The position numbers were made by a program, and so were the translations under genes. Under the pieces are notes generated by a model. The model saw only the letters and a list, made by a program, of their open reading frames with translations. It was not told the origin of the DNA and searched no databases. A stretch of 64,000 nucleotides of DNA from Zygnema cylindricum (taxonomy: Eukaryota > Streptophyta > Zygnematophyceae > Zygnematales > Zygnemataceae), in assembly GCA_037447655.1 (NCBI GenBank), contig JBBHKE010000190.1, forward strand, positions 1 through 64,000, written 5' to 3'. The first letter of the stretch is position 1; every line of letters starts with the position of its first letter. Of this stretch, positions 18,440-64,000 are shown piece after piece.

Positions 18440-21400
18440 ATGGCCCCTCACAAGCGGCGGGCGTCACGCTCCCCGTCGTCGTCTTCTTCGGATCATGCTC
18501 GACCACGGTTGAATACCTCAGATGAGACCCTTAACCTTAACCCTCCGTCGCCTACCTCCCAGAGTACCACTTTCCCCCTTCCACTGTACAATTACCCCCA
18601 CACAGGGTTCCCTCCACCATTCCTAACCCTTGTACACATCCTCCGGAGGCCACACCACCAATACTTTCTATAAAACCTATTCAATCCCCATCTTTAAGTA
18701 AAGAGCCTCCCCTTCTCATTGGTGCCCCTTACTGTCCACCCCACTTTCGAAGCATTCTCAACCAACGCATTCCACCCCTCTTTCACAACCACCTTCGGAG
18801 CATTCCCAGCCAATGCATTCCATCCCTCTTTCACAACCACCTTCGTTACCTCGATCGTCAAGTTTTGGTTCACCTAGGGTACCCTGTCCTAAGTGTGGAA
18901 GGTTATATGTGGCGCGTGGCGGTTTGTCGAGGCATTTGAAGTCATGTCCTCTGACTCCTAAGGGTATCCAACCTCCAAACAAGAGTCACCCTTCTCCACC
19001 AATTGTTCGCCATCAACCATCTCCGACTGATTGGCAATATGTTCGGCGCCTCAACGTTCTTGGGTGTTACCATTTGGGCTATCCACGCCCTCGATTGTAC
19101 ACTCGTACCACGAGCAATCTTCGTGATTCTATCCTAGCGGCTCTTCGACTCCCTTTAGCCTTATTGGCTGAAGACATCGCCAACGACGCGGCGTGGCACT
19201 TACTCCTTTGGTTTCCTCTTTGGGTTTTGGATTTGCCTTCAAAGGGGGGTGCGAGCGGGGCTCGTGAGACAAAAGCTCATTGCCAACGATTTTTGAGGGG
19301 GGATTGGGAGTCATTGCAATAGGAGCACACGGATTGTGCCATAGGTATTTCCATGTCCCCTCCCAAGCGTCATGCCCATTACCAGGCTCCACGGCGAGAC
19401 TACACCGAGCTGTCCATCTTGGTCATTCTGGAGAGTTTTCTCGAGATGCTCGTGCTCTTAGACCGTTCACCCTATCTCCATCTTTAGAGGCAACGGTTGA
19501 AGCTTTGCGTTTGCTCCATCCTCGTGCCCGTGACGAGCTCCTTCCTATCATTGAGGTGCATGATCCACTCGAGTTTTTTGACTTGGAGCGAGAAGCTTTT
19601 ACAAAAGCTTTGATTCGGTCTCCTCATCTTTCAGCTGGAGGCCCATATGGCATGGTTTACGAACTCTTGCGGGATGTATTTCCCCTTGAGACCCTTTCTC
19701 AAGGTTTTGACGTTCTTTTTAAAGTGGCTTCTGGGGTGGCTCGGGGGCACGTCCCTCATCATGTTGTACCTCTTCTCTCTGCGGCACGTCTTGTAGCTGT
19801 TTCGAAACCTGAGGGCGACATTCACCCTATTGCTATTGGAGAAGTTTTGTACCATTTGGTGCTTTGTGCGATGTGTAATCAATTTCAAGGGGCCTTCCAT
19901 GACCATTTTACACAACATCAGTTTGGACTTGCTACTAGCGAGGGTTGTGAGGCAGTTGTTTATGGCATTCGTGCTCTTCTGGATCTTCATCCAGATTGTG
20001 TGACCCTTCAAGTGGATATTGCCAACGCATTTAACACAGACAATCGCAATGTTATCTTTCGAGAATTAAGGCATGCACCATCGCCGATTAACCATATTTT
20101 CCCTTTTGTGTGTGCCTTTTATTCTCGTCCAAGCCCCCTCATCTTTCCTCTAGGCGGTCCGTTTGGTGATGTTGCCACCTTAAAAATATGCGACTGGCAC
20201 TCGCCAAGGTGATCCTTTGGGGGCACCCCTTTTTGCGTTGGCTCACCTTCAAGCATTACGTGACTCTAATGCGGCTTTTCCTCGTTGTTTATTCCCTTCA
20301 ATTATGGATGATACGCATATTGTCGGGCCCCGAGACCAAATTTTGTCTACCTTCGCCCATTTCGCAGAGCAACTTTCTAAGATCGGCTTATCAGTTAAGC
20401 CATCTAAGCGTGTGGCGTGGTGCCCCCAAGGCTTACCTTCCGACTACCCTGTCCCTATGGCTTTTCGAATTGCGTCTTCGATGGAGGGAATTAAGCTTTA
20501 GGATCCAGTATTGGAACCCCATCATTTGTTAACCAAGTTGTTACTGATGCTTTGTTGGAGGACCTCTCCCACTCGAATGACCTTCCTAAGCTCTTCGACT
20601 CCCAAGTGGCTTTCGCAATCCTCACCCGTTGTTTTGCTCAATGTCCGTTATATCTCGCGCGGACAGTCCCACCAACGGCTCTGTTTTTGTCTTCTTTGAA
20701 AGACTTTGACGACAAACCTTTTAGCGTGCTTCACCACATCGTTGGGCATGGGATTTTTGATCGGCTGGAAGGCTCATTTGCCCGCCAACAAGCAACTCTC
20801 CCTATTTCTAATGGCGGCTTAGGTTTGATTCCTGTGGCTAGCGGTGCTCCAGCAACCTATTTGGGTAGTTTGGCTTTGGTGGCATTTTCCATCACCTCTC
20901 GCTTTATCCTCAATGACGTTGCAATTCTAGCTCAGGTGGTCCCTAAGGTGGAGGAAAAGCTTTTTTCTTTTCATGAGGCCCTTCTCTCTGCGCGTGCACT
21001 GCTCCCGCCTAATGCACGAAACCAGGTTCCACCTTTTCAAACTCTTATTTCGCACAACAACTTCCATCTCCAATAGCGCCTAACTGAGCAATTGGCAGTC
21101 GCTGAATTCCATAACCTTTTGAACGCGCTACCTTCTGCTCAATCGCGTGCTCGTCTGCGTTCGTGTTCTTGAAGGGTTGGTGCGTGGTTGCAAGCCACGC
21201 CGATTTTTTCGACACTTCGTTTGACTTCGGATCAATTCACATCTGTCGTACCTCTACGCTTGGTTTTGCCGCACCCTGCTCTTCTTGAGCGACCCGATTG
21301 TGTTTGTAATCAACCTATCGACCTAGACGGAATTCATCTACTACATTGCTCTTGGGGCGGTGAACGTACTGTTGCGTAGACTCAATTGGTGCAATTGGCA

Positions 21401-24556: not shown

Positions 24557-25749
24557 TTGCGTGGTTCACACTTGGAAAAATGGGAAAACGATATCATAAT
24601 GATTTGAAAGGACTACTTTTGGCCATAGAGGTACCAAGCGTTTTAAAAGCACGCATGAAACATCGAAAAAATAATGATATATGCGCACGGAAGAAATGCA
24701 ATTTTTTTTAAACTCGTTGACCGACTTTGACTTCGTCATAAAATATAAAATAAAAAACATTTAATCAAAAGTACTACTAAAAATTAGGGTATATGCCCAT
24801 GTATAAAAGTACCTGTTTTTTAGTGTATCTTCCGTCAAAGATTTTCTCGCGGCTTCCTCTGGCTTTGCATCCACGCTGGTGGAAGGCACATGGTCTATGC
24901 CACGTGTAGCCACATAATTGCGCGTTCGTCATGGATATTTATTTTCATTTCCACGAGGCGAAATGCTATACGTTCAAGCTGCTAAAATTGAACTCCTTCA
25001 GGTCACTTGTTGCAAACTGGCAGGTTTTAACGACGGCGTATCCGAATATGCATCCGACGGTCAAGGTTTACGCCCATAACCTTGGAGAATGAAATTAGTC
25101 ATCCAGAAACTTGTTTTTCTGACAAAAAAACAAAATTGGTACTGCATTGTCTGATAGCCCGTTCCCACCGGAAAAAAATTAACTTCCGCAACAGACGAAC
25201 GTTCGAATAATGTACGGCTTTCCGAGCACCGACTTTGTAGATTTCGGAAGTTCTCGAAAAACCGTACAAACGAACTTCCTCAAAATATTGCCGGATACAG
25301 AAGTAGGGTAAAAGTTGCGTCTTTCTGTGAAACAGGCCAACAGTAACCCGAAAAGCTGACGTAGCAAAAACAACATCCGAACGGCTATTTCGTTGTTTTC
25401 GCACGAAAAATATGCATGACTTTGAGCCACCGTCGTCGTCCTTCGAACATAGTAAATTTGAAAATCTGCAGGTTTGTTTCCGCGCCTTTGTTTGATGACG
25501 TCAAAGCGTGTGACGTGTCATAGGACACCTTCGATCGGAGCTATGTGCCAAAATTTTGGTGTGAACGACACCCGTTTTCCGATGAGTTTTCGGAAAATCA
25601 TCGGAATGGGCAAAAAGATACAAATGCTCCGGTGGAAATAGGCTATGAAACTGTACATCCAGCAGTAAATAACCTCATTTTCAATCCTAAATGTAACTTT
25701 CCCCTAACTCAAAAAAAAATACTTTAATATTGGAACTATTTAACTCATT
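24557..25749. other. Intergenic stretch, no gene recognised
   Basis: The minus frames at 25099-25404 and 25179-25430 overlap each other and have no recognisable domain. No RNA gene noticed. Confidence 0.45.
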
Positions 25750-26007
25750 GTTCAAAAGTAGGCGTTTTATGGTAGGCCTTTGGAAGGCGCAAGTTGTGTT
25801 ATGGGCTTTTCATGTGATCTTCTTAGATTGCTACTTTGATTAACGACCGTCCGATGACGTTTAATTCTCTATCGAACGATGTGCAACTCAACCCTGTTAC
25901 TTTTATTTTTCATTTTGCGACCAATACAATATGGGTCTTAAGGTCATATTGTATGTTTTGCGTACAATAGGCATATTGTATGGGCCTACTTTCACCTACT
26001 TTTGAAC
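25750..26007 (+). mobile_element. GTTCAAAAGTAGG miniature element, copy 1 (family 3, short)
   Basis: The ends are GTTCAAAAGTAGG and CCTACTTTTGAAC. The interior shares GTTTTATGGTAGGCC, ATGGGCTTTTCATGTGATC and the nested palindromic AATACAATATGGGTC...CATATTGTATG block with the other three copies. This copy lacks the TTGGTCCGAATG tandem units and has unlike flanking dinucleotides (TT and TG), so it is the most diverged. Confidence 0.75.
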
Positions 26008-26599
26008 TGTGGTTTAACTAGCGTAAATTACTCTACTGCCGAATATTTCTAGGTAGTGTAATGTACGAAATGTGTCAGTCCGTACTATAAATTCTCATTA
26101 TTTCGTACAGATGTTTATAATAAGTGTCAAATAATGGCGTCGACAGGGAAAATTGAGTGCGTCATGCGGAAAAGCGTACTCGTATTTGAATTCAAGTCAT
26201 AAAGACGAAAGAAAGTCGCGTTAACCTGTTCTCACGTGTTCATGCGTCGAATTTGTGAACATGGACTATCGCGGCTACAGTAAAAACATGGGAACTTGTA
26301 TCGATTCCTTAACTTTAACAGCGATTCACGGTGTACTTTTTGACTTTTATTGGAAAATTCCCTACATGTTTTCCGTACATTAAATCCGTACACGAAATCT
26401 ACGAGTTTTACGAAAATTTCAAAATCTTAAAAAAATAACGCATTTTTGTAGAAAAGTGAAAATCCGTACGTTTGGTACCTCTCCTTTTGGCCTTTGATGG
26501 AGCGGTGGTCTTACGCTACCATAGTTGTCCCGTGCGCATAATACGCACGAAACGAACGCGCGAATACTACGCACGATACGCATTTAACGATGATGAAAA
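26008..26599. other. Intergenic stretch with one family-2 terminus
   Basis: At about 26317-26336 the sequence ACAGCGATTCACGGTGTA matches a family-2 right end, but no left partner was found, so it is probably a relic. Nothing else recognised. Confidence 0.45.
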
Positions 26600-27140: not shown

Positions 27141-27457
27141 CCAAAGCTACAGTATTGTAACGAACGGTATGAAAGTAACGAATACTACGTAAAATCGTAT
27201 AAAAGTCGAAATCCGTACGACTAGGACAACTAGGGGAAAAAGAGCTCTGAAAAAGAAAAAACTTGATATTTTTTCGAAGAATCTGGTGACAGATCGAGAG
27301 ACATAAATAATATCAGAAGCCGTCGTGGAAAGTTCCAGAATTAGTGACGTCGACAGTGTCATAAACATGCATGACGCCGACAATGTCACAGAAAACCAGA
27401 CGTTTACAATGTCACTATGAGAGTCTACAAAAGTACGACTTCTGTATTCGAACCATA

Positions 27458-27754
27458 GTTCAAAAGTAGGCGTTTTATGGTAGGCCTTTGGTCGGCGACT
27501 TTATCGTAAGTTGAGTTATGGGCTTTTCATGTGATCTTCTTAGATCGCTACTTTGATCAGCGACCGTCCGATCGTCAGAATCTGACGGTGAAAGCAAATA
27601 TTTTTGGTCCGAATGTTTTAATTGGTCCAATTTTTGGTCCGAATGTTTTAATTGGTCCGAATAGGTCCGAATACAATATGGGTCTTAAGGTCATATTGTA
27701 TGTTTTGCATACAATAGGCATATTGTATGGGCCTACTTTCACCTACTTTTGAAC
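27458..27754 (+). mobile_element. GTTCAAAAGTAGG miniature element, copy 2 (family 3)
   Basis: 297 bp with inverted ends GTTCAAAAGTAGG/CCTACTTTTGAAC and flanking TA at 27456-27457 and 27755-27756. It contains two TTTTGGTCCGAATGTTTTAA units and the CATATTGTATG palindromes. It is non-coding, and the short frame across it is chance. Confidence 0.88.
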
Positions 27755-27860
27755 TAGGATTCGAACATTGTCATAACCGTATAGTGCGTACGGAGAGTCT
27801 TTAATACCGTACATTACAATCTCTGCTTGTACGGTTTCAGCGGTGCATGCCCTTAGCCTC

Positions 27861-29572: not shown

Positions 29573-29722
29573 CTAACAGCGATTCGTGACGTAGCATTGT
29601 GCAGGGTTCTGTTTTGCTCAGTCTGTGAGGATCCTCACAGGGAGTGTAGATCTATTTTGCCAGACTCTTGCGTTGCACTTGCCGCAACTACCAACGTGTG
29701 AAGAATAGCTTAGCAGTAAGCC

Positions 29723-32700
29723 ATGGCGGATACTTATGTTCCCAAGGCTATCCTAGTTACAGGAGCTGCAGGCTTCATTGCCAGCCATGTGGCAAACCGG
29801 CTTGTTAAGAATTACCCTCACTATAAAATTGTGGTGTTGGATAAGCTGGACTACTGTTCCAGCTTGAAAAATTTGGCTGAGGCAAGGAAGTCTCCTAATA
29901 TGAAGTTTGTCAAGGGCGATATTGCAAGCGCAGATCTGGTGAACTACTTGCTTCTTTCTGAAGGAATTGACACGATCATGCACTTTGCTGCTCAGACACA
30001 CGTGGATAACTCTTTTGGAAACAGTTTTGAGTTCACAAAGAACAACATATACGGAACTCACGTTCTCCTGGAAGCGTGTAAAGTGGCTGGAAACATTCGC
30101 CGTTTCATCCACGTCAGCACAGATGAAGTTTACGGTGAAACTGAGGCTGACGCTATTGTTGGTAACCATGAAGCTTCTCAACTGCTACCGACAAATCCAT
30201 ACTCTGCCACCAAAGCTGGAGCGGAGATGCTTGTCATGGCTTATGGACAATCTTACAACATTCCTTTTATTACAACCAGAGGAAATAATGTATATGGTCC
30301 TAACCAGTTTCCTGAGAAACTGATCCCAAAGTTCATGCTGCTGGCTATGCAAGGCAAAAGCCTTCCTATCCATGGTGATGGCTCTAATGTCAGGAGTTAC
30401 CTCTATTGTGAAGATGTTGCAGAGGCCTTTGACATTGTTCTTCATAAGGTGACTGGACGAGAACTGTTTACCTACTTTGTTTTAGAATCCCTGATCCGTC
30501 TTTCTGCTTGTATTTTCCCCCGCGTCTTCATTTGTATTTTTGGCAATTTGTTTCTCTTTTTTTGTTTGAGATCTTGAATTTTGATTCTTTCAACTGATTT
30601 TTGTTCCAGTAAACGTTATAGTTAATCAGTGTTGTTGACAATATTGTTTTTATTACAGAGTATAAAATTTTCTACTATTACTGAAGCTCTCATATTGTTT
30701 CTTGTGCTCTTCATTAGTATGTTTGCTGTTTTTATTTCCTTCAGATCTGTCCTCCTGTGTTAATATTGACGATAAGCTGATATTTTTCTTCATTTGATTC
30801 GCTCTATGCGCTGCATATTACAGTCTCCTTGGTGTCTTTTTTCTCTTACCAGCAGAGATCTTACTGCTCACACTATTTATCAAACTCTTTGGTGTTTTTA
30901 CTTTGTTTTACCTGCACATGTCTTGCTGCGGGTAGTAATTTTGACGTCTACTTGATATTTTTTTTCTCTTGCTAGCACAGATCTCGCTGTTTTTGCTGCA
31001 AGTTAGTCTCCTTGATGTTTTTTTTTTTTCTCACCAGCACGAATATTTTCGGGTTCCTTGCTATTTCATGGCGTAATTTTCTAATGTTGTTGGTTATTTT
31101 GCAGGGTACTATTGGCAACGTTTACAACATTGGCACAAAGAAAGAGAGAAGAGTTCTTGATGTGGCAAGAGACATTTGCAGCCTCCTTGGTTTGGAAGCT
31201 GATTCATTAATCAAACTTGTTGAAAATCGGCCTTTCAATGATCAGCGCTACTATCTTGATGATGCTAAATTAAAAAATATAGGATGGCAAGAGCGCACTA
31301 CTTGGGAAGATGGGCTGAAGAAAACTTTGGAATGGTACCGTTCTCATCCTGACTATTGGGGAGATGTTTCTGCTGCACTTGTGCCTCATCCTCGTAACAA
31401 TACCATCATCGGTGGTGCTGCTATGCTTCCGGAGGAGATTAAAGAGGTGGCTGGCGGTGCCAGTGCTGGTCAAGGTGCTTTGAAATTCTTGATCTATGGC
31501 CGGACTGGGTGGATTGGAGGTTTGTTGGGCAAGTACTGTGATGAGCAGGGAATTGCCTATCAGTATGGTGCTGGTCGTCTGGAGGACAGAGCTTCTATTG
31601 AAGCTGATATTGCTGCCATCAAGCCAACACATGTTTTCAATGCAGCGGGAGTTACTGGCAGGCCTAATGTTGATTGGTGTGAATCTCATAAGACAGAGAC
31701 AATCCGAGCTAATGTTATCGGTGTCCTTACATTGGCAGATGTAACCAGGTGAATTTTTCAACTTGTTTCTCTTTTAGCTAGTGTATTTGACCCTCATGTC
31801 CCCTCTTTGGGTGGATCTCAATGTCATGATTAGGTCTATGATGGTGAGCTGAATAGGTTAGGTCTTTGGCCATGTGTGTGAGTGATGCCTTGACTTATGA
31901 AGTCAGCCTGGTTTTGTTTGGTCGTTGTGAAGCATGATTATTGACCTTTCATTAAATGTTCTGGTGACCACCTCACTGACTATTACAGGGCTATGATGCA
32001 GGAAGTATGATTTAACTGTGATCAATTATGCTACTGGCTGTATTTTTGAGTATGATGCAACACACCCGGAGTTCAGTGGCATAGGATTTAAGGAGGAGGA
32101 TAAGCCAAACTTCTTCGGGTCGTATTACTCACGAACAAAAGCAATGGTGAGAAGTAAATGGCAGCAGCAATGGTTCTTGATGGATGTTATGATTGCCCCA
32201 AGAATACTTTTACTTGTCTATTTACAGGCTATACCAGTGATTTTTGTTCTAGCTTAACTGCTCGATGAATTGAACAAAATGGCTTTCATATCGCTTATCA
32301 TTTCAACCATTAATATTGAAACTAATTTTATTTAAAACTGTTGTTTTAGTCCGCTATTGGTTTAAACCAAATGCACGCCTCACTGAATTACCTCTGAAGT
32401 TAGTGTACAATAAATTCAGATTATAGCTATGTACTCCCGAAAATTTGATTGTGCAACTTTTTGCGGATTTAATGAGCATCACTTCCTGAATGATTTTTTT
32501 TTTCCCTAGGACGCCATTGACGCTTCTGCTAATATATATTGAAATGTACATGATCTTGTAGATTACAGAATATTTTTGAAATGTTCTTCTTACGTCGTCT
32601 CTGTTTCTAAGCCACTAGTATCCGGAAGGCTGGATTTTCTGAAAATAAATATGAATTTTCTTTTTGCTGAAGGGGATAGTTTATGGTTGATTCAACTTGA

Positions 32701-34611: not shown

Positions 34612-34619
34612 GACTTTAT

Positions 34620-35530
34620 TAAAAAGCGCGATGGTAAACCATCTGAGTCCATAAGAACAAAAAGAAGTAGCATTGCTAAAACTGAGAAACCACATAACAA
34701 GGGAATAAACAAAAGGGAAAATCAAGGCAAAAACTACGAAAATACGAAAGGATGGCAAGGAAGTCTAAAACACCCAAAAAAACCAAATCCAACAAACAAA
34801 ACATCAAAGGAAAATGCTAACACGTAGCAAAAAGAACCCCCAACATAACTAAAAATTTACAGAAAGCAACCACATATGTCCCCGAATCCCGGAGGAGCAC
34901 GAGGAGGAAGTTCCGGAACACGGCGTCGATCCATAACGGCAATAGACGATCGAAGTAATATAGAAGCCAACACCCGTTGTAGGGCCACGGAAAAACGTTG
35001 ACGATAAAAGGAAGTAAGGACTGAAACAGGAGGGCTCCCAGGTCCTCGCCTCTCGACCGAGCGTCGACCACAAGAACGGAAAAACTTGTCCAAAGCAACA
35101 CCCAAGCAACCAAATATCTCGACCGCCATCCGAATGAAGCCATCCTTAGCGTCGCGATGTGCATAATCACGCTCTTTCCTTTTAGCTGCGTCACGGTCAG
35201 CCACTCCCATATGCCGAGCCGCTTGGTTGACGACTGTAGTTGAGGTAGGGTTCGTCAAAACAATGTCACCAAATGTACGACGCGCACCATCAAGTAATAC
35301 AAGGTCGATCCGACGCGAAGGAATAATGTGAGAGACCTCGCGACGAACAGAAAATCCCCCCTCAGAAGCGATAGTAGCGATGGTGTCTCGAATCGTGTCG
35401 TGCGCATGAATCAACTCGCCCCCGTGGGAGCAACGAAGCAAATGGACCCCATTGGGCTCGAGAACGTGGCCGCAGGAGCAAACAAGTGAGCCAAGCAAAG
35501 GTGGGTGAGGGAGGCCAAGCCGGAATCTTT
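34620..35530 (-). mobile_element. RLE-type non-LTR retrotransposon, copy B, 5'-truncated
   Basis: The minus frame 34857-35498 encodes only the C-terminal part: CSCGHVLEPNGVHLLRC knuckle, RREVSHIIPSRRIDLVLLD, FGDIVLTNPTST, MAVEIFGCLGVALDKF and TSFYRQRFSVALQRV. It is collinear with the 3' ends of copies C and D. The insert is flanked by the 8-bp repeat GACTTTAT at 34612-34619 and 35531-35538. A 3'-anchored, 5'-truncated copy with a target duplication is what target-primed reverse transcription leaves. This fragment is open over 213 residues, so the insertion is fairly young. Confidence 0.85.
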
Positions 35531-35758
35531 GACTTTATGTGGTACAGACAGCCTTCGGACCATCTTTGTCCGCCAATTTAACGGTGGACACTTCTTATTG
35601 GATGTATTTTTATTTCCTGCCTTTTCTGTGGGATACCGAGTTTGTCTCACGCGGAGTCTTGCCGAATATTTGTTTCAAATAGATAAATACACACGAAAAT
35701 ACCTATGTACACAACCCGTATCCCGCGAGACACGTGGGAAACCCAAATTTTTTTCATA

Positions 35759-36045
35759 GTTCAAAAGTAGGCGTTTTTATGGTAGGCCTTTGGTCGGCGC
35801 CTTTATCGTAAGTTGTGTTATGGGCTTTTCATGATCTTCTTATATCGCTACTTTGATCAGCGACCGTCCGATCGTCCAAATCTGACGGTGTAAATTAAAA
35901 AATTTTGGTCCGAATGTTTTAATTGGTCCAATTTTTGATCCGAATGTTTTAATTGGTCCGAATACAATATGGGTCTTAAGGTCATATTGTATGTTTTGCA
36001 TATAATAGGCATATTGTATGGGCCTACTTTCACCTACTTTTGAAC
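35759..36045 (+). mobile_element. GTTCAAAAGTAGG miniature element, copy 3 (family 3)
   Basis: 287 bp, inverted ends as in copy 2, flanking TA at 35757-35758 and 36046-36047, with two GGTCCGAATG units. It is oriented opposite to copy 4, about 780 bp away. Confidence 0.88.
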
Positions 36046-36824
36046 TATGGTTTGTTTCTCTTGAAAACGAGCCGAATTTTTGTTTTTTCCTTCCGCAATC
36101 CTTTTTGTACGCATTGATGAAACGTACGCGACTGGACCTCTTGTAGCATTTTTTGGCACTGGACTGGACTGAACCGTGCATTTTTATGTTCGAAACCTTT
36201 TCATTTGGGACTTTTTTCGGTCGAGTTCGTTTTCAAATTTCGCGCTCTTTTCATGACAAGTTCAAATTCCACGTGCGATGTTGTTATTTGGATTACATGC
36301 GTTATTCGCATCACGGAAGAGCCGATGAGAGACTTATATGTCTGGAATTTTATTTCTTCTTTCAGAAGATGTTTGAATTGCAGTTATAAATTATCACTTT
36401 AGTGAATATTAGTGAAGCTTGAAATGGGGCGGGAAATAATGAACAGGGTTTACTGTATCTATGATTTCATTTCATTAAAAGAATGGTATTAAGTTTGAAG
36501 TAGAATTTCTAAATGTAATAAAGTTAGACAAACATTTTCAAACTGGCCAAAATTGATAAATATTCATCGTGGCCGAAAACGTTTTAGAGGAAACGATGTT
36601 AGCCGGAGTTGAAAGCTCAAATCTATATCTTCCATTGAATTTTTAATTGTTAAGTCCTATGTGGAATTGAAAACATTAAACTAATTTTACTATTTGTGCC
36701 ATGAAATAACAATTTTTGACGACTTAATTCTGTATGCATTATAAATCAGAATTCCTTCCTGGTATGAGATTTATTACTTTTCGTTTAAGCTACTAAAGGA
36801 ACCGTTTAACTAGGATGAAGTATA
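36046..36824. other. Spacer between inverted family-3 elements
   Basis: No gene recognised. Together with the flanking inverted copies 3 and 4 it would form a large stem-loop. Confidence 0.5.
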
Positions 36825-37150
36825 GTTCAAAAGTAGGTGAAAGTAGGCCCATACAATATGCCTATTGTAAGCAAAACATACAATATGACCTTAAGACCCA
36901 TATTGTATTCGGACCTATTCGGACCAATTAAAACATTCGGACCAAAAATTGGACCAATTAAAACATTCGGACAAAAAATTAGACCAATTAAAACATTCGG
37001 ACCAATTTTTTTTTTACACCGTCAGATTCGGACGATCGGACGGTCGCTGATCAAAGTAGCGATCTAAGAAGATCACGTGAAAAGCCCATAACACAACTTA
37101 CGATAAAGGCGCCGACCAAAGGCCTACCATAAAAACGCCTACTTTTGAAC
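36825..37150 (-). mobile_element. GTTCAAAAGTAGG miniature element, copy 4 (family 3, inverted)
   Basis: 326 bp, flanking TA at 36823-36824 and 37151-37152. It is the reverse complement of copies 2 and 3, with three CCAATTAAAACATTCGGAC units against two in those copies, which accounts for its greater length. Confidence 0.88.
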
Positions 37151-37152
37151 TA

Positions 37153-38437
37153 TGCATCAGACTGCAAAGTGAAAAGTGAAGTTGTTTACATAAATCAGGA
37201 CCTGTGCCACCTATTTTGTTTTATTTGCAGCAGAATATTACAGAGAGTTTCTGCCAAAATTTTCCAAAGGTCCGGGAGGTAACAGCGACCGTTGGATATT
37301 CATCTGCGAGGCATTCGCTCCAATCGGTTCTGTAATCGAGGAGATCGACGAGGTCGGTTGTCAGGTACAGAAATCGGAGAGTCGCGACACGCTGGATGAT
37401 AAATACGTGTCGCGGTGAACTAACACCTGAATTCTCAAAATTTGTACGTTGTGTGATTTTCGGACAAAGTGGACGCGAGTCCACCAAAATCCAACCGAAT
37501 ATCCAAAAGTTATTTCGTAACGCTCTTTCGTCACGCTATTTCCGGCAGCGCTCTTTTGTCACACTATTTCTTCGCAACGCTCTTTCGTCACGCGAGAACA
37601 GCAGCCGTAAAAAATGAGCTGGTGTGTAGACAGGCGTCTGCAAAGAGTACAAAAATTGTGTCGTATGATGACCTGGTACGCAAGTACATGGTACGCAAAT
37701 GAAGATTTTAAGTTAAAATTGGTCGGTGTTAAAAATCTTTAAGATCTTGCACCACTCAATTTAAAAGACGAGGTTTAACAGTCTCTACGCGATGGAACAT
37801 CGTCCAAAATATATCAGCCCGTAACGCTGGCCGTACAATTACAGAGTTTCCCGATGGAACGTCACCCTAATACCTGACTCGATTGCGACAAATTAGAACT
37901 TTTTTGATGGGACCCAAAACGCGCAAGCTCCATTGCCGAGAAAATCGTACAAGTTGTCCAGTTGGGCCTATCGGGGCACTTTTTGGACCAAAATGCGACG
38001 GTCTGCAAAAACAATAGTCGCGACAAACAATGATTGGGATAGCCGCGGGAAATCGAGCCGGCCAATTATTTTCTCGCCATGTGACTGAAGCAAATGATTA
38101 GGTATACAAGATTCACGAAAATTGTCATGAAATTTTCTAAAAACTTTTTCGACGTCGCAAAAAGTGATTGATTCGTGCAAATTCGTGAATTGGTTTAAGA
38201 AAAGTTTTGAGAAGCGTAAAACAGAGTAAAGAAAAAGGATTATCGATTTTTTTTGTTCTTCCCGGTTTTTTGTCCCTTCGTTCGTTAGGTGAATCTCGGA
38301 GCGGTGAATGGCGGTAAACTTCATCCTGGTCATTTCATTGGCCTCCGCGTACTTCAACGAATTTGAACCGTATTTTTATAATCTCCCGGTTAATTATTAT
38401 TTTTTTATCCATAAAATTGTAGCAAGATACAATACAG
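37153..38437. other. Intergenic stretch, no gene recognised
   Basis: Short overlapping frames only. A local repeat at 37515-37590 has three units of the type CGTAACGCTCTTTCGTCACG. Confidence 0.45.
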
Positions 38438-52444: not shown

Positions 52445-54281
52445 CTTTTGAGAATGTGTATGATTTCTGGGTTCCTTAGTCTTTTCTGTTCCAATTTTGA
52501 AAGACAGTGGGGTATTGAGACTACTAATATATACTATTTTATCATTGAAGGCGAGGCACGCGGGCATGTGCTGGCACTGGACCATTAGTCTCTTCAATCA
52601 CAAGAAATGTTTGTTGTCTGTAAAATCTAGAGGAAACAGTTGAACTGATTACCAAAATATTGCATTCTTTTTTTCTCCGACCATTTTTTTCAAGTTGATC
52701 AGCTATGTTCCAACTTCCGCTATTGTAACTCAAGCAAACAAATAAGAATGGGTTACTCTGTAGTTGTTGGTTACTAGTAAAGCCAATACCATGATGGTGT
52801 GAATACTCTGTATTGGTTGCTTGTCATTTATATTCCATTTACAAGGAAAGCGACTATCTTTTGAAATTGGAATTATGAGACATTTGTCTCTCGGCAAGAT
52901 CCAATTTTTGTTATGACTCGAACAAATTGTTGATGGTTATCCTATTCATTGTCATTGTTTCGTTCCAATTCTTTGAGTTAGTTGCTTGTTATTAGCAATT
53001 TACTTGCAAGGAAAGCGTCATCCTTATGAAATATGGAAATGTCTGAATGGGACATTGATATTTTTCTGGCAATCCATATAAGTTCTGAATTGTTGATTGT
53101 TGGGAATGCCGATAGCTATACTATCAATTGTCGGAAGAAAAAAAAAATGGAATTATGTCGAAACGGTGGCAACATATAATTCATGTAAGTTTTGAGCTGT
53201 TAATGGTTGAGACTGCTGATAGGGTAATTGCATTGAAGAAGTGTAACCTGATGTTGAGGGTAAATTGTACAAATTTGGTACAAATCGTACGTAAATTTAT
53301 TCAAAATGCTCTATGAATTGGACGATTTACCCTTAACAAGGATAAAACTTCAATGGTGTAATTGGCCTGCAACTTACATTGTAGTCATTCACATCAGAAT
53401 CGGTCCTATGCTACCGCAGTCTCTCTATATAACCAGCATACATCATATTCAATAATAATGTACTTGCTGAAAACTTTCTAGCATTCACAATTCCACAGTA
53501 CTGTAAAGGTGTAATTTCTTTCCATCAAATCCAACTTTTTTGATGTGTTTTTGCAGTTGCATTAACACTTGAATCTCCATAGCCACATAATTATGGTGCA
53601 TAGGCGGACATGGGAAGTCAAACATGTCATTCGTTATTTGTAGGACTTGACCATGGTATCTAAGCAGACATGGGAAATTCCAGTAAACCACGGGTTGTGT
53701 GGCTGATGGTTGTCATGTAGAGTTGGGAACTGTCCTAAGTTGTAAAGCAAAGAGAAGTGAAATCGTGTGCAAACACTATATCTGGTAGCCCAGTATTATA
53801 AGTAATGCAATAAACAAAAAAACATGCATAATGCACACATACCATGGGTTACTAGATATAGCGCTTGCACACGTTTTTGCACATGATTTTTGTTTGGATG
53901 GCTGATCAATGGCAATAGGTCACTCTTTAAGCTTTCTAGAAGCGGGCGAAGTCTTGTGTCATTGTCGCAGAAAGAGTGTTGTGCATGGACACATTTAGAT
54001 CGCACTATTGTGATGAAAACATTTCACGTAAAATGGGTCTTATGCATTTGCAAGATGTTTGACCTTAAACGAATGCCATAATTACTCGAAACAGCGAGGA
54101 TTAGGAAAACAGCTCGAATAAATAAACTTTTGCAAAATGATTTTGATAATTATAATTGGCTTTACAGCGAGCGAAAGCTTCTATCCTCCTTCGATCGGCT
54201 ATTGCTTTATGGATTGTCGGGGGGTTTTGAAACTTTTTCAGTGTGTTTCCCTGGCCAAGGGGATTTAAGTACAACGCAGGA
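52445..54281. other. 3' flank of the helicase gene and intergenic stretch
   Basis: Presumed 3' UTR then AT-rich spacer. No gene recognised. Loosely repeated GTTGGTTACT/GTTGATTGTTGG-type stretches occur at 52750-53110. Confidence 0.45.
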
Positions 54282-57200
54282 TAAATTAAAAAGCACGATG
54301 GTAAACCACCTAAGTCGGTGGGTACAAAAGGGGTGGCATGGCCGAAACTGAAAAACTATCGGCAGGGGAATAAAATAACAGCACAACAAAACAAAAACAA
54401 AAACAAAAAGAAAACAACAACATGGAAAATAAAAGCACCCAAACTCAAAATGAAAAGCACGGCAATTGAAAAAACCAAAACTACAACCCCAAACCCAACC
54501 CAATTAAATAACTACGAAAAGCAACCCCGTAAGTCCCCCCATCCCGGGGGAGCACGTTGAGGGAGTTCCGGAACCCGGTGACGATCCATAGCCGCAACAG
54601 CCCATCGGAGGAGAATAGAAACTTGGACTCGTTGTAAAGCCACAGATAAGCGTTGACGATAAAAAGAAGTAAGTACCGGCTCCCAGGTCCTCGGCGCTCG
54701 AAAGCACGTCGAGCGCAAGTACTGAGAAACTCGTCCATTGCAACACCCAGACAACCAAACATCTCGACCGCCATCAGAATAAAGTCATCCATAGGGTCCT
54801 GGTGGGCATAATCACGCTCCTTCGCCTTAGCAGCATCACGAGCCGCCACCCCAACATGTCGAGCCGCCTGACCAACAAGTAGCTGAAGTAGGGTTCGCCA
54901 AAGCAATATCACCGAAGATGCAACGGGCACCATCAATCAAAACAACATCGATCCGACGCTTGGGAATAATATGAGAAACCTCCCGACGCATAGAAAAGCC
55001 CCCATCTGAAGCGATAGTCGCAACGGCATCGCGAATAGTGTCGTGCACTTGGATCAAATCTCCCCCATGGGAGCAATGAAGCAAATGGACACCATCTGGC
55101 CCCAAGACGCGACCACATGCACAAATAAGAGAGCCAAGTAATGGAGGATGGGGGAGGCCAAGGTGAAACCGGAGGGCGATGGTAAACTAAGCCGGTGAGA
55201 ATCGGAGAGTGGACAAAATCGGTGTAGCGAAAAGTCAAGACCCAAAACCAGGTCCACCACAAGAGAGAAGACGGGCACGCAAAGAATCAGAGGGAAGCGC
55301 CTTGAGAAGGTCGGATTTAATGGCGGCGACAACCCGATCAGAAATCCATTCCTGAATACGCTCAACAGATTTTGGAGCAAGGGTGGAGAAAATTGGCACA
55401 TCCACTAGGGCATGGGGAGGAAGAGAATTTGACGCGTCCAATAGAGATCGCTGGAAGGCGAACAAACCGTCTGAAACCCGGGGGATAACAGTAGCTAGAA
55501 CGGGGGTGTCCCCAGCCAAGAAACGAGAAACATGAGTGGAGGCAATAAGACACGAACTTCCCAAATAGGCAGCGGGAGCAACACGAGCAGTGGATAATAG
55601 ACCCAACCCCCCAGTAGAGATAGGGAAGGATGCCTGAATGGGGGCCGATGGCCCAGACTCGCGATCAAATGCCCCATGACCGATCAAATGCCCCATGACC
55701 TAACAGAGTGTGGAGGACGTCCATGAGGCGATCGTCAAAAGACAAGAGAGAGGAGATAAATGTTGGGGTGGGAGGGGAAGAATGAGTAAGGTAAGAAGGG
55801 CGGTGGGAAAAACACCTAGTTAACATAGCAAAAACAACTTGGGGATCGGGAAGGTGAGGAAGATCGTCCACTCGGGCCAGATATGTCTGTAAAGCATTAT
55901 GAAGGAATTGGGTGACGAAAGTATCTGAACCAAGGGGGCAACCAATCACCCGAATGCCATCGGAGGGCGAAGGGGTTTGAAAACCAGGAGGGGGAGTAAA
56001 CGAAAGTGGAATATCCTGAGGAGACCAAATAACACAGTTCAACGGCTGGACTGAAAGGCTGAGTTCGACTAAACGTTCCTTGAAAAAATCATATGCCAAC
56101 ACGACTTGTTCTCTGGGCCCAATAATGTGCGTATCATCTACAACCAAAGGGAAAAGGCTAGAAGGGAAGGCGGTTGCGGAGACACGAAGGGCCCGGTAAT
56201 GGGCGAGGGCGAACAAAGGTCCGCCGAGAGGGTCGCCTTGGCGAGTGCTAGCAGAGGTGAGAGGAATGAGATCAGCATCGGCCGAGATGTAAAGGCTGCT
56301 TGTCAAAAAATAGAGAGCCCTCACAAAATGGAATAATTAGACAATTGGAGATGGAGCCGCCATAAGCTCTGAAAAATTCACGTTTCGATCCACCGTATTA
56401 AAGGCATTGGAAACGTCGACCTGATGGACCAACCAATCCGGATGTACATCCAACAAAGCCCGAATTGCGTGGACCACGGCCTCACAACCCCTTCTCGTGG
56501 CCACTCCAAACTGATGAGGAGAAAAGTAATCATGGAAAGCTGGTTAGAGCTGGAGACATATTGCACGAGCCACCAATCTATATAAAACCTCTCCCACAGC
56601 GATAGGGCGGATCCCACCATTAGGTTTGGCGACTGCCACAAAGCGGGACGCCGTGAGAAGATCACAAATCAGAGGGGGAACATCCCCACTTGCAATAAGG
56701 GAACATACTCGAAAAAACACATCGAACCCCCGGGCACCCGATTCAGGGGGCAAATCATCGCAAAACAACTCATACACTGTGCCCGAGGGCCCCCCCGCTG
56801 AAAGGTGAGGAGAAGAGCTAAGAGCCTTAATGAAAACCTCCCGATCCAAAGTAAAACTCTCAGAAGGCTCAAAGGCGTGGGTGGAAAGGGGTAAAGGGGA
56901 AGGTGCAGGGGGGTGGAGAGCTCGAAGGACCTCAATAGTGGAAGAAGATCCAGGGGCAAGGGTGAATGGTTGTAGGGCCCGAACTGCTCAAGAAAACTCA
57001 CCAACACGGCCTAAGTGAATAGCTCGACGATAAGAGGCCAGGACATTCGATGGCCTAGGTGGCTAACATGGTATAAAAGAGGTGCTCGATACCCGATCGG
57101 CGTGGAGGACTTTCTAGTCACCACGAAGGAATCGGCGACAACGGGCCATAGTTTCTCTAGCCCCACTGCCCCCTCCACGACCTGGAAGGACTAGCACCTA

Positions 57201-57870
57201 GAGAGCGAACATAAGAAGAAGGTGCCAAGGAGCAATGTCTGCCGAGTTTCAAGAAATGTGGGACAAAGGTTGGTGGAGGGCATCTTGTACTATTTTCCTG
57301 ACGACCATAGGTATACGCGTGTACAATCGCGGGCGAGGAGCTCCCAAATCGTAAGCCCCCAAAACATCTAACTCAAGAATGAAACTCCAATCCTCGTCTG
57401 TGGGGCCGGAGGGGGGTGTGATCGACAACGATTGAGGAAAGGTGATAGACAAAGGACCACCCAGGGTTATACAATGTCGACAACTCCGTGTGTGAAGGGA
57501 AATATCGGCCCCAGCGGCAAAAAGATTCCGACACCCAGGACATTCCAAACGCATAGAAGATTTACAAGGTTACTGGAGGTGGGGAAGGGAGAAAGGAATA
57601 AGAAGGGCTTCCGGACATGGTTAATAAGTCAAAGAAGCCATGGGAATTGGGAGGGTCAACAGAAGTGAAAGTGTGGGAGAGGAAAAGGAACCATGTGGGT
57701 TGGATGGGGAAATTGGTAGTTGGCCAGAATATAACATAAAGTTTGATGCTGTGGTTTTGCCAATGTGCGTGCTGTTGGCAGCGGCCGCGAGCCAGATCCG
57801 GAGGTACATGGCTACGGGAAGTGGGAGCTGTCACGTAGTGCAGGAGGAAAAGACAAAATAGAGGAGATCC
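54282..57870 (-). mobile_element. RLE-type non-LTR retrotransposon, copy C, near full length
   Basis: Minus-strand remnants in order: finger CPGCRNLF...HTRSC and PRPRLYTR (57249-57554); reverse transcriptase start SPHLSAGGPSGTVYELF and GIRPIAVGEVLYRLVARA (56544-56849); motif B TRQGDPLGGPLFALAH and motif C VVDDTHIIGP (55665-56324); thumb region LLSTARVAPAAYLGS (55235-55696); CCHC knuckle and endonuclease region RRIDVVLID...GDIALANPTS (54836-55105); SFYRQRLSVALQRV near 54600-54660. A TAG replaces a Gln codon at about 56545-56547, and frameshifts occur near 54860, 55690 and 56340. The 3' end at about 54282 has the AAATTAAAAAGCACGATGG terminus shared with copy D. The exact 5' end is obscured by tandem repeats and the N gap. 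Confidence 0.85.
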
Positions 57871-57950: not shown

Positions 57951-57960
57951 NNNNNNNNNN
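57951..57960. other. Assembly gap (10 N)
   Basis: Ten N characters just beyond the 5' end of copy C. The true length is unknown. Confidence 0.99.
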
Positions 57961-59062: not shown

Positions 59063-59833
59063 GTGTTGGGTATCGGGTAAATTTATATCGCGATTAATTT
59101 CGATATTCTATGCATCAAATATCGATCAAACAGACTCCTCGATATATTGTACTGAGACCAACATAATCAACGCGATATAAATCGCGATATATAGTATATT
59201 TTAAATATAATATTTTATTTAATATGCTTTTTTGGCGAAAAAAGACTAATTGTTTCATACGCCATGTTCAACGTGATTTTCGTTCCATGACTTAAACGTA
59301 GACGCAGCAAAATGTAACCGACAAAAAAGTACTAATTATGTAATTCATATAATTAATTATTTAGTACGTAGAGAACTTCACATACGAAAAAGTCACACTA
59401 ATTAAGTCAAAGCGTGATCTGAAAAATAAAAAATTGTAGACTTGTTATTAATATTATAAATTATTTTTTGAAGTGTACAAAATGTGATTTTTTATTATTA
59501 TTTTTAAGGTTTATTTTTTGAAGTGTACAAAATGTTAATTTTTATTATTATTTTTATTAATTATTTTTTGAAGTGTACAAAATGTGAATGTTTATTTTTA
59601 TTTTTATTTTTATTAATTTGGAGTAGTAGTAGCTACGACTACCAGCTGCAGCAGTAGCACTAGTACTGGCAGCAGCAGTAGTACTAACAAAAATAGCAAG
59701 AATAATTATATATATATATATTTTTTAAAAGCCTCGATATATCACAATATTTAGCTTTTCCATATATCGATTATCGGGTAAATGAAATTCGATACATGTC
59801 GAACATTGGCAAATGGTCCTCGATACTCAACAC
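59063..59833. mobile_element. TATCG-rich miniature element, copy 4 (family 1)
   Basis: The ends are GTGTTGGGTATCGGG and CGATACTCAACAC, with TA at 59061-59062 and 59834-59835. ATATCG/CGATAT words cluster near both ends. The centre holds a tandem repeat (59461-59620) and an AGT/AGC trinucleotide patch (59625-59690). Confidence 0.7.
59461..59620. repeat. Three tandem units of about 55 bp inside the TATCG element
   Basis: Units begin TTATTTTTTGAAGTGTACAA and are followed by AATGT and A/T-rich runs. There are three copies with small length differences. Confidence 0.8.
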
Positions 59834-59835
59834 TA

Positions 59836-60540
59836 CTCCATACATTTGTGGCACCTTCAACACCCCTTGACACCTTCGGGACCTTGCGGGGTCGGGTATG
59901 TGAATAGGGCTCAGATGTTTAGGGTCATTTATTATTGGTTTTTTTAATATTAAAAAAAAATAACAAATAAACCTTAAACATACGGCAGCGCGGAGAAAAT
60001 GGGAGGCCGGGGCGACGTGGACGCTTTCGGCACCCCTCCGGAGGCCAAAAAAGTTGCAAGATTTAGTACTGTGGCGCTCGGCCCGGTTTGAGACGAAACC
60101 AAACTGAACAAAACCAAACAGTTTTTTTTGGCGGTTCGGCAGTGAAATTCAAACCAGGTTTGGAACGGTTTGGTTTAGGGTAAAGTTCCATTAGGACATT
60201 CTGTAATTGTACGGCCAACATTATAGAATGCTACAATTTGAACAAAGTTCCATTGCGGAGACATTGTAATCCACGTGTTAGCAAAAAAGTGGTGGCACGT
60301 AGTTATAGATTTGATATTGAAGATCGTCAAGTAAATTTCACACTGACCAACTTTTGTTAAAAAGTGAACTTCGCTTCTCATGTACTTGCGTTCCAGGTGA
60401 TCGTACGACACAATTTTCGTACTTCTTATTTACGCCTTTATCTTCCACACCACCTCATCCTTTAAGGTTTGTGATTTTGAAACGAACATTAGGTTTCCAC
60501 CGACTTTAACTTTCTTAACGGCTATTATAATAAAAAAACC
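59836..60540. other. Intergenic stretch, no gene recognised
   Basis: Contains an ACCAAAC/GTTTGGT-rich patch at 60090-60180. The minus frame 60175-60411 has no recognisable domain. Confidence 0.45.
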
Positions 60541-61098
60541 CAAGATAAATTAAAAAGCACGATGGTAAACCATCTGAGTCCGGGGGTACAAAAGGGGTGG
60601 CATGGCCGAAACTGAAAAACTACCAGCAGGGGAATAAGATAACAGCACAACAAAAACAAAAAGAAAACAACAACAAGGAAAATAAAAGCACCCAAACTCA
60701 AAATGAAGAGCAAGACAATTGACAAAGCCAGAACTACAACCCCAACCCCAACCCAATTAAATAACTACAAAAGCAACCCCGTAAGTCCCCCCATCCCGGG
60801 GGAGCACGTTGAGGGAGTTTCGGAACCCGGCGAGGATCCATAGCCGCAACACTCTATCGGAGGAGAATAGAAGCTTGCACTCGTTGTAAAGCCATAGATA
60901 AGCGTTGACGATAAAAAGAAGTAAGGACCAAAGGAGGAGGGCTCGCTGATCCTCGGCGCTCGAAAGCACGTCGAGCGTAAGTGCGGAGAAACTCGTCCAT
61001 TTCAACACCCCGACAACCAAATATCTCGACCGCCATCAGAATAAAGTCATCCATAGGGACCCGTTGGGCATAATCACCCTCCTTCGCCTTAGCGTCAT

Positions 61099-61327
61099 TG
61101 TTGGATTGGCACGTGAAGCCGGTCCAATACGGGGTAGAATATGGAAATATCCATACTCGAGCCGCCCGTAATAAATGGGTACGGACCCGCCAGTCTCAAC
61201 ATCGAGCTGGTGGCACAGTGGTAGTGCGTTCGCAGCTGAAGTGAAAGGTCCCAGGTTCGAACCCTGGCCGGCTCAATTTTCCCAAGTGTGGGACATGCCG
61301 AATCCCGGATTTCTAGGAAATCTAACA
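61099..61327 (+). repeat. TRIM 5' LTR (229 bp)
   Basis: TG...CA termini with short inverted ends TGTTGGAT/ATCTAACA. Contains the tRNA-like module at offset 106-177 and a TTTT directly after it. Confidence 0.93.
61204..61275 (+). ncRNA. tRNA-like cloverleaf in TRIM 5' LTR, Pol III unit
   Basis: A 72-nt sequence folds completely. Acceptor stem is GAGCTGG/CCGGCTC (one G-U). D stem is GCAC/GTGC with loop AGTGGTA. Anticodon stem is TTCGC/GTGAA with loop AGCTGAA. Variable loop is AGGTC. T stem is CCAGG/CCTGG with loop TTCGAAC. Discriminator base is A. The A box TGGCACAGTGG (61211-61221) and B box GGTTCGAACC (61254-61263) match Pol III consensus. TTTT at 61277-61280 is a terminator. The formal anticodon is CTG (61236-61238), but the base before it is G instead of the universal U, so it is unlikely to be a working Gln tRNA. 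It looks like a tRNA-derived promoter kept inside the LTR. Confidence 0.85.
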
Positions 61328-61340
61328 TGGTATCGGAGCC
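61328..61340 (+). other. TRIM primer-binding site
   Basis: TGGTATCGGAGCC immediately follows the LTR end with no spacer. It is complementary to the 3' end of initiator Met-tRNA except for one base. Confidence 0.85.
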
Positions 61341-61373
61341 AGCGGGATTGCGGATGGTTTGACCGGCTTTCCC

Positions 61374-61384
61374 GTGAGGGGGGG
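61374..61384 (+). other. TRIM polypurine tract
   Basis: GTGAGGGGGGG directly precedes the TG of the second LTR, where plus-strand priming occurs in LTR retroelements. The whole interior is only 57 bp. Confidence 0.8.
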
Positions 61385-61613
61385 TGTTGGATTGGCACGT
61401 GAAGCCGGTCCAATACGGGGTAGAATATGGAAATATCCATACTCGAGCCGCCCGTAATAAATGGGTACGGACCCGCCAGTCTCAACATCGAGCTGGTGGC
61501 ACAGTGGTAGTGCGTTCGCAGCTGAAGTGAAAGGTCCCAGGTTCGAACCCTGGCCGGCTCAATTTTCCCAAGTGTGGGACATGCCGAATCCCGGATTTCT
61601 AGGAAATCTAACA
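61385..61613 (+). repeat. TRIM 3' LTR (229 bp)
   Basis: No difference from the 5' LTR was seen on reading the two through base by base. Followed by the GTCAT target duplication. Confidence 0.93.
61490..61561 (+). ncRNA. tRNA-like cloverleaf in TRIM 3' LTR, Pol III unit
   Basis: Second, identical copy of the 72-nt cloverleaf with the same A box, B box, discriminator A and trailing TTTT (61563-61566). The two copies are 286 bp apart. Confidence 0.85.
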
Positions 61614-64000
61614 GTCATCACGAGCCGCCACCCCAATATGTCGAGGCGCCTGACCAACAACTGTAGTTGAAGTAGGGTTTGCCAAAACAATATCACAGAA
61701 GATGCGACGGGCACCATGAAGCAGAACAACATCGATCCGACGCTTGGGAATAATATGAGAAACTTCCAGACGCACAGAAAAGCCCCCGTCTGAAGCGATA
61801 GTCGCAACAGCATCGCGAATAGTGTCGTGCGTCTGGATCAAATCTCCCCCATGGGAGCAACGAAGCAAATGGACACCATCGGCCCCCAAAACGCGTCCAC
61901 ATGCGCAGACAAGAGAGCCAAGTAAAAGAGGATAGGGGAGGCCAAGGCGAAACCGGAGGGCGGTGGTGAACTGAGCCGGTGAGAATCAGAGAGTGGACAA
62001 AATCAGTGTAGCGAAAAGCCAAGACCCAGATCCAGGTCCGCCACAAGAGAGAACACGGCCACGCGAAGAATCAAAGGGAAGCGCCTGGAGAAGGTCAGAT
62101 TTAATGGCGGCAACAACCCGATCACAAATCGAATCCTGGACACGCTCAATAGATTTTGTAACAAGGGTGGAGAAAATTGGCACATCTACTAGGGCATGAG
62201 AAGGAAGAGAATGTGACGCGTCCAATAGAGATCGCTGGAAGGCGAACACACCTGTCTAAAACCCGAGGGATAACAATAGCTAGAACGAGGGTGTCCCTAG
62301 CCAAGAAACGGGAAACAAGAGTGGAGGCAGTAAGACACCAAATTCCCAAATATGGAGCGTGAGCAACACAAGCAGTGGATAGTAAACCTAACCCCCTAGT
62401 AGAGACAGGGAGGGATGCCTGAATGTGGGCCGATGGTCCAGACTTGCTATGAAATGCCCCTCGACCTAACATAGTGTGGAGGACTTCCATGAGGCGATCG
62501 TTAAAAGCCGAGAGAGGGGAGATAAATGTCGGAGTGGGAGGGGAAGTACGAGTAAGATAAGAAAGGCGGTGGGGAAAACACCTGGTTAACATAGCTAAAG
62601 CAACTCGGGGATCGCGAAGGCTAAGAAGATCGTCCACCTTGGCTAGATCTTTCTGTAAAGCATCATGAAGGAATTGGGTCACGAAAGTATCCGAACCAAG
62701 GGGGCAACCAAGCACTCGAATGCCATCGGAGGCAGAAGGGGTTTGAAAACCAAGAGGTGGAGTAAACGAAAGTTGAATATCCTGAAGAGACTAAATAACA
62801 CACTTCGACGGTTGGACTGAAAGGTTGAGTTCGGCTAAACGTTCCTTGAAAAAATCATATGCCAACACGACTTGTTCTCTGGGTCCAATAATGTGCGTAT
62901 CATCTTCGACCGAAGGGAAAAGGCAAGAAGGGAAGGCGGCTACAGAGGCACGAAGGGCCCGGTAATGGGCGAGGGCGAACAAAGGTCCGCCGAGAGGGTC
63001 GCCTTGGGGAGTGCCAGTAGTAGAGGAGAGAGGAATGAGATCACTATCGGCTAAGAAGGAAAGGCTGCTTGTCAAAGAATAAAAAGCCCTCACAAAGGGG
63101 AATAATTGGACAATCGGAGATGGAGCCGCCATAAGCTCCGGAAAAATCACTTTCCGATCCATCGTATAAAAGGCATTCGAAACATCGTCCTGAAGTACCA
63201 ACCAATCCGGATGTACATGCAACAAAGCCCGAATCCCGTGGACCACGGCCTCATAACCCCGTTTCGTGGCCACTCCAAACTGATGAGGAGAAAAATAATC
63301 ATGAAAAGCTGGTTGGAGCTGGAGACATATTGCACGAGCCACCAATCTATATAAAACATCTCCCACGACGATAGGGCGGATCCCACCATTAGGTTTGGCA
63401 ACTGCCACAAGGCAGGACGCCGTGAGAAAATCACAAATCCGAGGGGGAACATCCCCACTTGCAATAAGGGAACATACTCGAAAAAATACATCGAACCCCC
63501 GGGCACCTGATTCAGGGGGCAAAACATCGCGAAAGAACTAATACACTGTGCCCGAGGGCCCCCCCGCTGAAAGGTGAGGAGAAGAGCTTAGAGCCTTAAT
63601 GAAAACTTCCCGGTCCAAAGTAACACTCTCAAATGGCTCAAAGGCGTGGATGGAAGGGGGTAAAGGGGAAGGGGCGGGGGGGTGGAGAGCTCGAAGGACC
63701 TCAATAGTGGAAGAAGATCTAGGGGCAGGGGTGAATGGCTTTAGGGCCCGAACCGCTCGAGAAAGCTCACCAACACGGCCTAAGTGAATTGCTCGACGAT
63801 AAGAGGTCGGGACATTCGATGGCCTAGGTGGCCGACGTGGTATGAAAGATGTGCTCGATACCCGATCCTCATGCTCGGCGTGGAGGGCCTTCTAGTCACC
63901 ACGAAGGAATCGGCGACAACGGGCCATAGTTTCTCTAGCCCCACTGCCCCCTCCACGACCTAGAAGGGCTAGCACCTAGAGAGAGAACATAAGAAGAAGG

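Follow-up and report, generated by a model that had tools for sequence, protein, structure and literature searches.

The window analyzed here, that is, the whole 64-kb stretch of DNA, contains a 515-bp TRIM-type, non-autonomous LTR retrotransposon, and we consider it probable (roughly 0.6) that this element is a single recent insertion of the Helenus type, carrying a tRNA-derived Pol III unit in its LTRs and mobilized in trans. Direct comparison of the two LTRs revealed identity at 229 of 229 bases; the LTRs have TG...CA ends, and their 8-base termini (TGTTGGAT / TGTTAGAT) are near-inverted. The interior is limited to 57 bp (61328-61384), with an initiator-Met-like primer binding site (PBS) at one end and a polypurine tract (PPT) at the other, and GTCAT is found on both sides of the element as a target site duplication (TSD). 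A short LTR pair, a PBS and a PPT at the ends of the interior, a length below 1 kb and a TSD together define a TRIM, and the LTR-retroelement anatomy that an earlier note on this DNA had claimed is thus borne out in full. The longest stop-free stretch in all frames of the 515 bp was 127 aa, too short for a reverse transcriptase or an integrase; judged by this length, the element is without transposition proteins. The coordinates of its features are collected in Table 1.

Table 1. Features of the TRIM and of the repeat that it interrupts, in window coordinates.
Feature	Position	Strand	Basis
5′ TSD, GTCAT	61094..61098	.	direct reading
5′ LTR, 229 bp, TGTTGGAT...ATCTAACA	61099..61327	+	identity to 3′ LTR
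TATA-like TAATAAAT, -35 to -28	61169..61176; 3′ LTR 61455-61462	+	direct reading, no chance control
CAA, -7 to -5, plausible Pol III start	61197..61199; 3′ LTR copy 61483-61485	+	direct reading
tRNA-like module, 5′ LTR, 72 nt, anticodon-position CTG, no U33	61204..61275	+	ARAGORN, Rfam, pairs
A box (presumed) TGGCACAGTGG	61211..61221	+	label taken from consensus
B box GGTTCGAACCC	61254..61264	+	direct reading
TTTT, Pol III terminator-like, 5′ LTR	61277..61280	+	sequence scan
PBS TGGTATCGGAGCCAG, initiator-Met type	61328..61342	+	14/15 vs presumed plant tRNA-iMet
PPT GAGGGGGGG, adjoins 3′ LTR	61376..61384	+	direct reading
Interior ends of the element, TGGTATCGGAGCCAGCGGGA and GTGAGGGGGGG			
3′ LTR, 229 bp	61385..61613	+	identity to 5′ LTR
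tRNA-like module, 3′ LTR	61490..61561	+	ARAGORN, Rfam
TTTT, 3′ LTR, proposed genomic-RNA end	61563..61566	+	sequence scan
3′ TSD, GTCAT	61614..61618	.	direct reading
Host repeat, LINE-like, RVT_1 reverse transcriptase, broken by the TRIM insertion	60537..64000	-	self-comparison and Pfam

The element interrupts a LINE-like repeat in which a Pfam search of six submitted proteins, one of them matching RVT_1, located a reverse transcriptase domain (PF00078; E 1.3e-14; 62794-63537, minus strand). Self-comparison of the window showed that a LINE copy at 54273-57222, 89% identical to the host repeat, is unbroken at the insertion point, as is a third copy at 34618-35525 (72-77% identical); at the position of the GTCAT target these copies have AGCAT and TGCGT, respectively. 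From these two related LINE copies, whose equivalent site is empty, we conclude that the insertion is real, and since its flanks are LINE-like repeat, the target was already a repeat and not a gene exon. A further LINE-like piece, in addition to the host repeat and these two copies, was found at 19268-20339; the pieces at 55668-56336 and 19268-20212 had no Pfam match.

The uninterrupted sites also speak against the structure being an assembly artefact, or a plain tandem duplication of a tRNA-containing segment. Tandem Repeats Finder does report the element as a 286-bp unit in 1.8 copies, and two short runs of N are present elsewhere in the window, but the nearest of these lies at 57951-57960, and GTCAT on both sides, the TG...CA ends and a PBS and PPT at the right junctions leave this explanation with almost no probability. 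With 0 of 229 sites differing between the LTRs (95% upper limit, 1.3% divergence), the insertion is young, in agreement with the recent activity proposed in the earlier note. The window holds one copy of the TRIM, and BLAST of the 57-bp interior retrieved no significant relative within the 64 kb, and hence no autonomous partner there. Exact-pattern scans of viral contigs and a blastn search of plasmids found no further copies, although collections of viruses and plasmids say little on this point. A T-arm pattern scan covering prokaryotic genome contigs gave matches in two of them, which we rejected as copies: they are ordinary tRNAs, each contig having a single ARAGORN call that spans the matched stretch (tRNA-Asn and tRNA-Arg).

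ARAGORN made two calls in the whole 64-kb window, one module per LTR, and in an Rfam search of the window nothing but these two modules reached the gathering score (RF00005; 53.6 bits per module, E 9.9e-9, gathering cut-off 29). All 21 of the 21 cloverleaf pairs are standard, two of them G-U, whereas none of 127,447 other template positions, taken from both strands, was fitted by more than 18 of 21; of 100 dinucleotide-preserving shuffles of the window, one produced an ARAGORN call. The folding energy of the module is ordinary for its composition (z -0.66, with 48 of 200 shuffles at least as stable), so that what distinguishes it is tRNA shape and boxes rather than stability. CCA is not encoded. 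The claim that each LTR holds a foldable cloverleaf with an A box, a B box and an immediate T4 terminator therefore stands, the TTTT beginning 2 nt past the module. We also read CTCAA on both sides of the module (61195-61199 and 61272-61276; no chance control), a pair that could be a trace of the entry of the module into the LTR, or chance.

ARAGORN labeled the module tRNA-Gln(ctg), and with its complete cloverleaf it might be taken for a working tRNA-Gln(CUG) gene that travels with the element. This is highly improbable. Decoding tRNAs have U at position 33, but the base before the anticodon of the module is G, and the "Gln" label rests solely on the anticodon triplet CTG. We aligned the module to a reference set of 11 presumed plant tRNA sequences; the set is incomplete, lacking a Gln-CTG gene, and ARAGORN returned the intended anticodon for all 11. 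Gln ranked only ninth (score -3), with 8 of the 10 others aligning better. The body and the anticodon of the module thus point to different tRNAs, and Kojima regards such a mismatch as indicating a non-functional tRNA (PMC10886601, cited throughout from the part of the article available). We therefore rejected a functional tRNA-Gln on the G at position 33 and the body/anticodon disagreement, the latter as judged by an isotype test with the presumed sequences. The highest score was that of initiator Met (14), followed by Phe, Trp and Ala (11 each); on these presumed sequences, the lead of initiator Met appears too small to name the parent tRNA of the module.

For the PBS assignment we took as reference the presumed 3′ end of plant initiator Met tRNA. 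The PBS region matched it at 14 of 18 bases, compared with at most 10 of 18 for the other 10 tRNAs of the reference set. The module itself, with CCA added, also reached 10 of 18, equal to tRNA-Asp, -Glu and -Val, and its longest exact complement to the PBS was 5 nt, a length equalled in 591 of 1000 shuffled PBSs. Self-priming by the tRNA-like module of the LTR was rejected on these two results, and the suggestion that the module acts by tRNA mimicry in priming was not upheld. This is concordant with Helenus, for which module-PBS complementarity is stated to be absent in the available text of PMC10886601.

We then considered the signals around the module. On the plus strand of the element, TTTT occurs at 61277 and 61563 only, one spacer base after each module. 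In 10000 shuffles of the LTR that excluded the module, a TTTT arose no more than 10 nt downstream in 62, and 16 had in addition a CAA no more than 10 nt upstream; at random window positions the pair was found in 1.2%. The CAA alone is weak, as 1636 of the 10000 shuffles place one in the same upstream interval. Upstream CAA and TATA-like motifs have been described for plant tRNA genes, and the upstream regions of flowering-plant tRNA genes are A/T-rich (PMC11700998, as far as its text was available). The -50 stretch of the element, by contrast, is not enriched in A+T (44%, versus 47% for the LTR and 58% for the window), which counts against transcription by Pol III. The first 10 bases of the B box GGTTCGAACCC form a perfect palindrome (GGTTCGAACC).

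Considering these features, we propose the following course for a Helenus-type element mobilized in trans. Pol III would bind the A and B boxes of the 5′ LTR and start near the CAA. Most transcripts would stop at the first TTTT, giving a short RNA of ~80 nt, and a minority would read through to the second TTTT, giving an RNA of ~369 nt with the tRNA unit as R region at both ends. Initiator Met tRNA would prime this RNA at the PBS, and the enzymes of an autonomous LTR element would copy it and insert it in trans with a 5-bp duplication. A promoter internal to the transcribed unit would be copied along with the RNA; the terminator of the tRNA unit itself would set the 3′ end, and R at both ends would supply the repeated ends required for strand transfer. 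The anatomy, the empty LINE sites, the tRNA-like unit, the placement of TTTT and CAA and the match to the Helenus description argue for this reading, as does the finding that yeast Pol III reads through many tRNA terminators (PMC4937561, available in part). At odds with it, read-through in yeast typically extends 50-200 nt according to the same text, whereas 286 nt past the first TTTT are needed here. In addition, RNase P/Z could cut the intact cloverleaf and thereby destroy the genomic RNA, and the case consists of one insertion whose autonomous partner was not found in the window.

The position of the first TTTT bears on a different division of labor, in which a U3 promoter would direct synthesis of the genomic RNA by Pol II, and the tRNA-like unit would be a separate Pol III gene yielding a short RNA only. 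With a TTTT directly past the module, most Pol III would terminate in the 5′ LTR; the element also has an AATAAA at 61170-61175. For Cassandra, an arrangement of this kind is implied by the title of Kalendar 2008 ("independently transcribed 5S RNA"). Furthermore, Cassandra transcripts detected by RT-PCR and as ESTs run through the intervening LTRs (PMC7215508, available in part). However, inspection by eye of the 105-bp U3 did not reveal a convincing Pol II promoter, and the AATAAA is included in TAATAAAT and so doubles as the TATA-like stretch on which the Pol III reading draws. We regard Pol II transcription of the genomic RNA as possible but doubtful.

A variant of the Pol III reading addresses the fate of the cloverleaf in the long RNA. 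The tRNA unit, as the whole R region, might act as a conformational switch, with a tRNA fold in the short RNA and strand exchange in the long one. Within the full-length RNA, the two LTR copies would swap strands between their acceptor and T arms by way of the palindrome in the B box, GGTTCGAACC; both ends would thereby be shielded from RNase P/Z, and the two R regions would be kept in contact for the first strand transfer. ViennaRNA gave the 369-nt RNA -155.2 kcal/mol when folded freely, -148.0 and -146.8 kcal/mol with one cloverleaf enforced and -135.4 kcal/mol with both, and assigned zero probability to the own acceptor and T stems of each copy. The RNA folded better than 100 of 100 shuffles (z -4.50), a lenient control because shuffling destroys the duplicated ends. 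Stems formed from LTR strands have also been modeled for Cassandra (PMC7215508). Cotranscriptional folding, by contrast, would favor the first cloverleaf, and we consider a switch of this kind quite unlikely.

TRIMs with tRNA-derived LTRs were named Helenus by Kojima 2024 (PMC10886601), who reports them from fungi, animals and the plant Selaginella moellendorffii and unites them with Cassandra and Ajax under the name TRIMp3. Helenus is defined there by structure, and on this structural basis the present element is a Helenus. It shares with Helenus two short LTRs with tRNA-derived sequence, a B box and an A-box-like motif, a PBS, a PPT and the lack of proteins; its 5-bp TSD is that of the plant and fungal members, and its 515 bp fall inside the reported range of 311-1263 bp (PMC10886601). 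Most Helenus LTRs hold the A-box TRGCY..YGG and the B-box GGTTC (PMC10886601); the corresponding motifs here are TGGCA..TGG and GGTTC, so that the B box and YGG fit, but the fifth A-box base is A, not Y. The only plant family in that source, Helenus-1_SMo, has 120-bp LTRs and an 85-bp interior, compared with 229 and 57 bp here. The present host appears to be a streptophyte alga, a group absent from the taxa of Table 1 of that source. Although the box motifs are conserved in Helenus, most described families are without a credible tRNA, unlike the complete cloverleaf of the present element. Since 7 bivalve and 15 fungal families are able to encode a tRNA (PMC10886601), a full cloverleaf is uncommon but not unique. 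We conclude that the architecture is a known one, of which this is a new and well preserved example, not a new kind; the solution parallel to Cassandra that the earlier note saw in the tRNA module had already received its name from Kojima 2024.

The parallel as such holds. As in Cassandra, the 5S rRNA TRIMs of land plants, both LTRs of the element carry a Pol III-type unit, and the PBS is of the initiator-Met type, differing at 1 of 12 bases from the Cassandra motif TGGTATCAGAGC (PMC7215508). The element carries a tRNA-like module in place of 5S rRNA, the two Rfam matches in the window both being tRNA, and its proposed R region of ~83 nt includes the whole tRNA unit, whereas that of Cassandra measures only 18 bp (PMC10886601). 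Ajax, the 5S TRIMs of nemerteans, has the TRIMp3 architecture and a 5-bp TSD in common with the element, but differs in its partial 5S sequence and tRNA-Leu primer (PMC10886601). tRNA-derived SINEs likewise are short and non-coding and have an internal Pol III promoter of the tRNA type. The element, however, has LTRs, a PBS, a PPT and a TSD of fixed length (5 bp) and lacks a SINE tail, and it therefore belongs to the LTR-retrotransposon cycle and not to target-primed reverse transcription.

The module could nevertheless be a passenger, a tRNA or a tRNA-derived SINE copied into the LTR of one lineage not long before that lineage moved, and without a role in mobility. One insertion is known, and the completeness of the cloverleaf would be consistent with a recent capture; the two LTR copies give no independent evidence of selection because both descend from one event. 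On the other hand, the presence of the module in both LTRs implies that it has passed through at least one full cycle of reverse transcription, the terminator and the CAA are correctly placed around it, and tRNA units recur in the LTRs of TRIMs from the fungi, animals and Selaginella surveyed in PMC10886601. Taken together, these observations make a passenger unlikely.

The window contains further features apart from the TRIM. A family of ~300 bp (25745-26015, 27454-27756, 35755-36048, 36822-37154, minus) looks like a MITE: its BLAST pieces are 75-99% identical, its termini are inverted, (C)ATAGTTCAAAAGTAGG / ...CCTACTTTTGAACTAT, and repeats of 30 bp lie inside it. A gene of the UDP-rhamnose synthase (RHM) type, with at least three exons, lies at 29720-32155, and its protein is 81% identical to the nearest among the matches listed. 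In a tree of 26 rows, selected from the 240 proteins listed plus the window protein, the latter grouped, without internal resolution, with Closterium, with rows presumed from their identifiers to be Spirogloea and Mesotaenium, and with unnamed transcripts; 14 land-plant rows formed one branch (support 94/100, slightly below the level that the tool marks with a star) with the window protein outside. The host is therefore likely to be a streptophyte alga, probably a zygnematophyte. At 59445-59608, an A/T-rich unit of 50 bp is repeated in tandem 3.3 times.

The literature searched, which lay outside subscription journals and Repbase, yielded no report of a TRIM with a tRNA module in streptophyte algae. 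The main text of a plant TRIM survey (PMC4717578) does not contain the word "tRNA", and in the available part of the Zygnema genome preprint tRNAs are mentioned only in the methods, references and software table. Each insertion of such an element also produces two false "tRNA-Gln" calls, a warning for tRNA annotation; in rust fungi, Helenus has caused false tRNA calls on a large scale (PMC10886601). If confirmed as a family, the element would extend the tRNA-type TRIMp3 elements into streptophyte algae. With a proposed RNA of only ~369 nt, it would also offer a compact system for a question left by PMC10886601, namely whether Pol III by itself suffices for an LTR retrotransposon.
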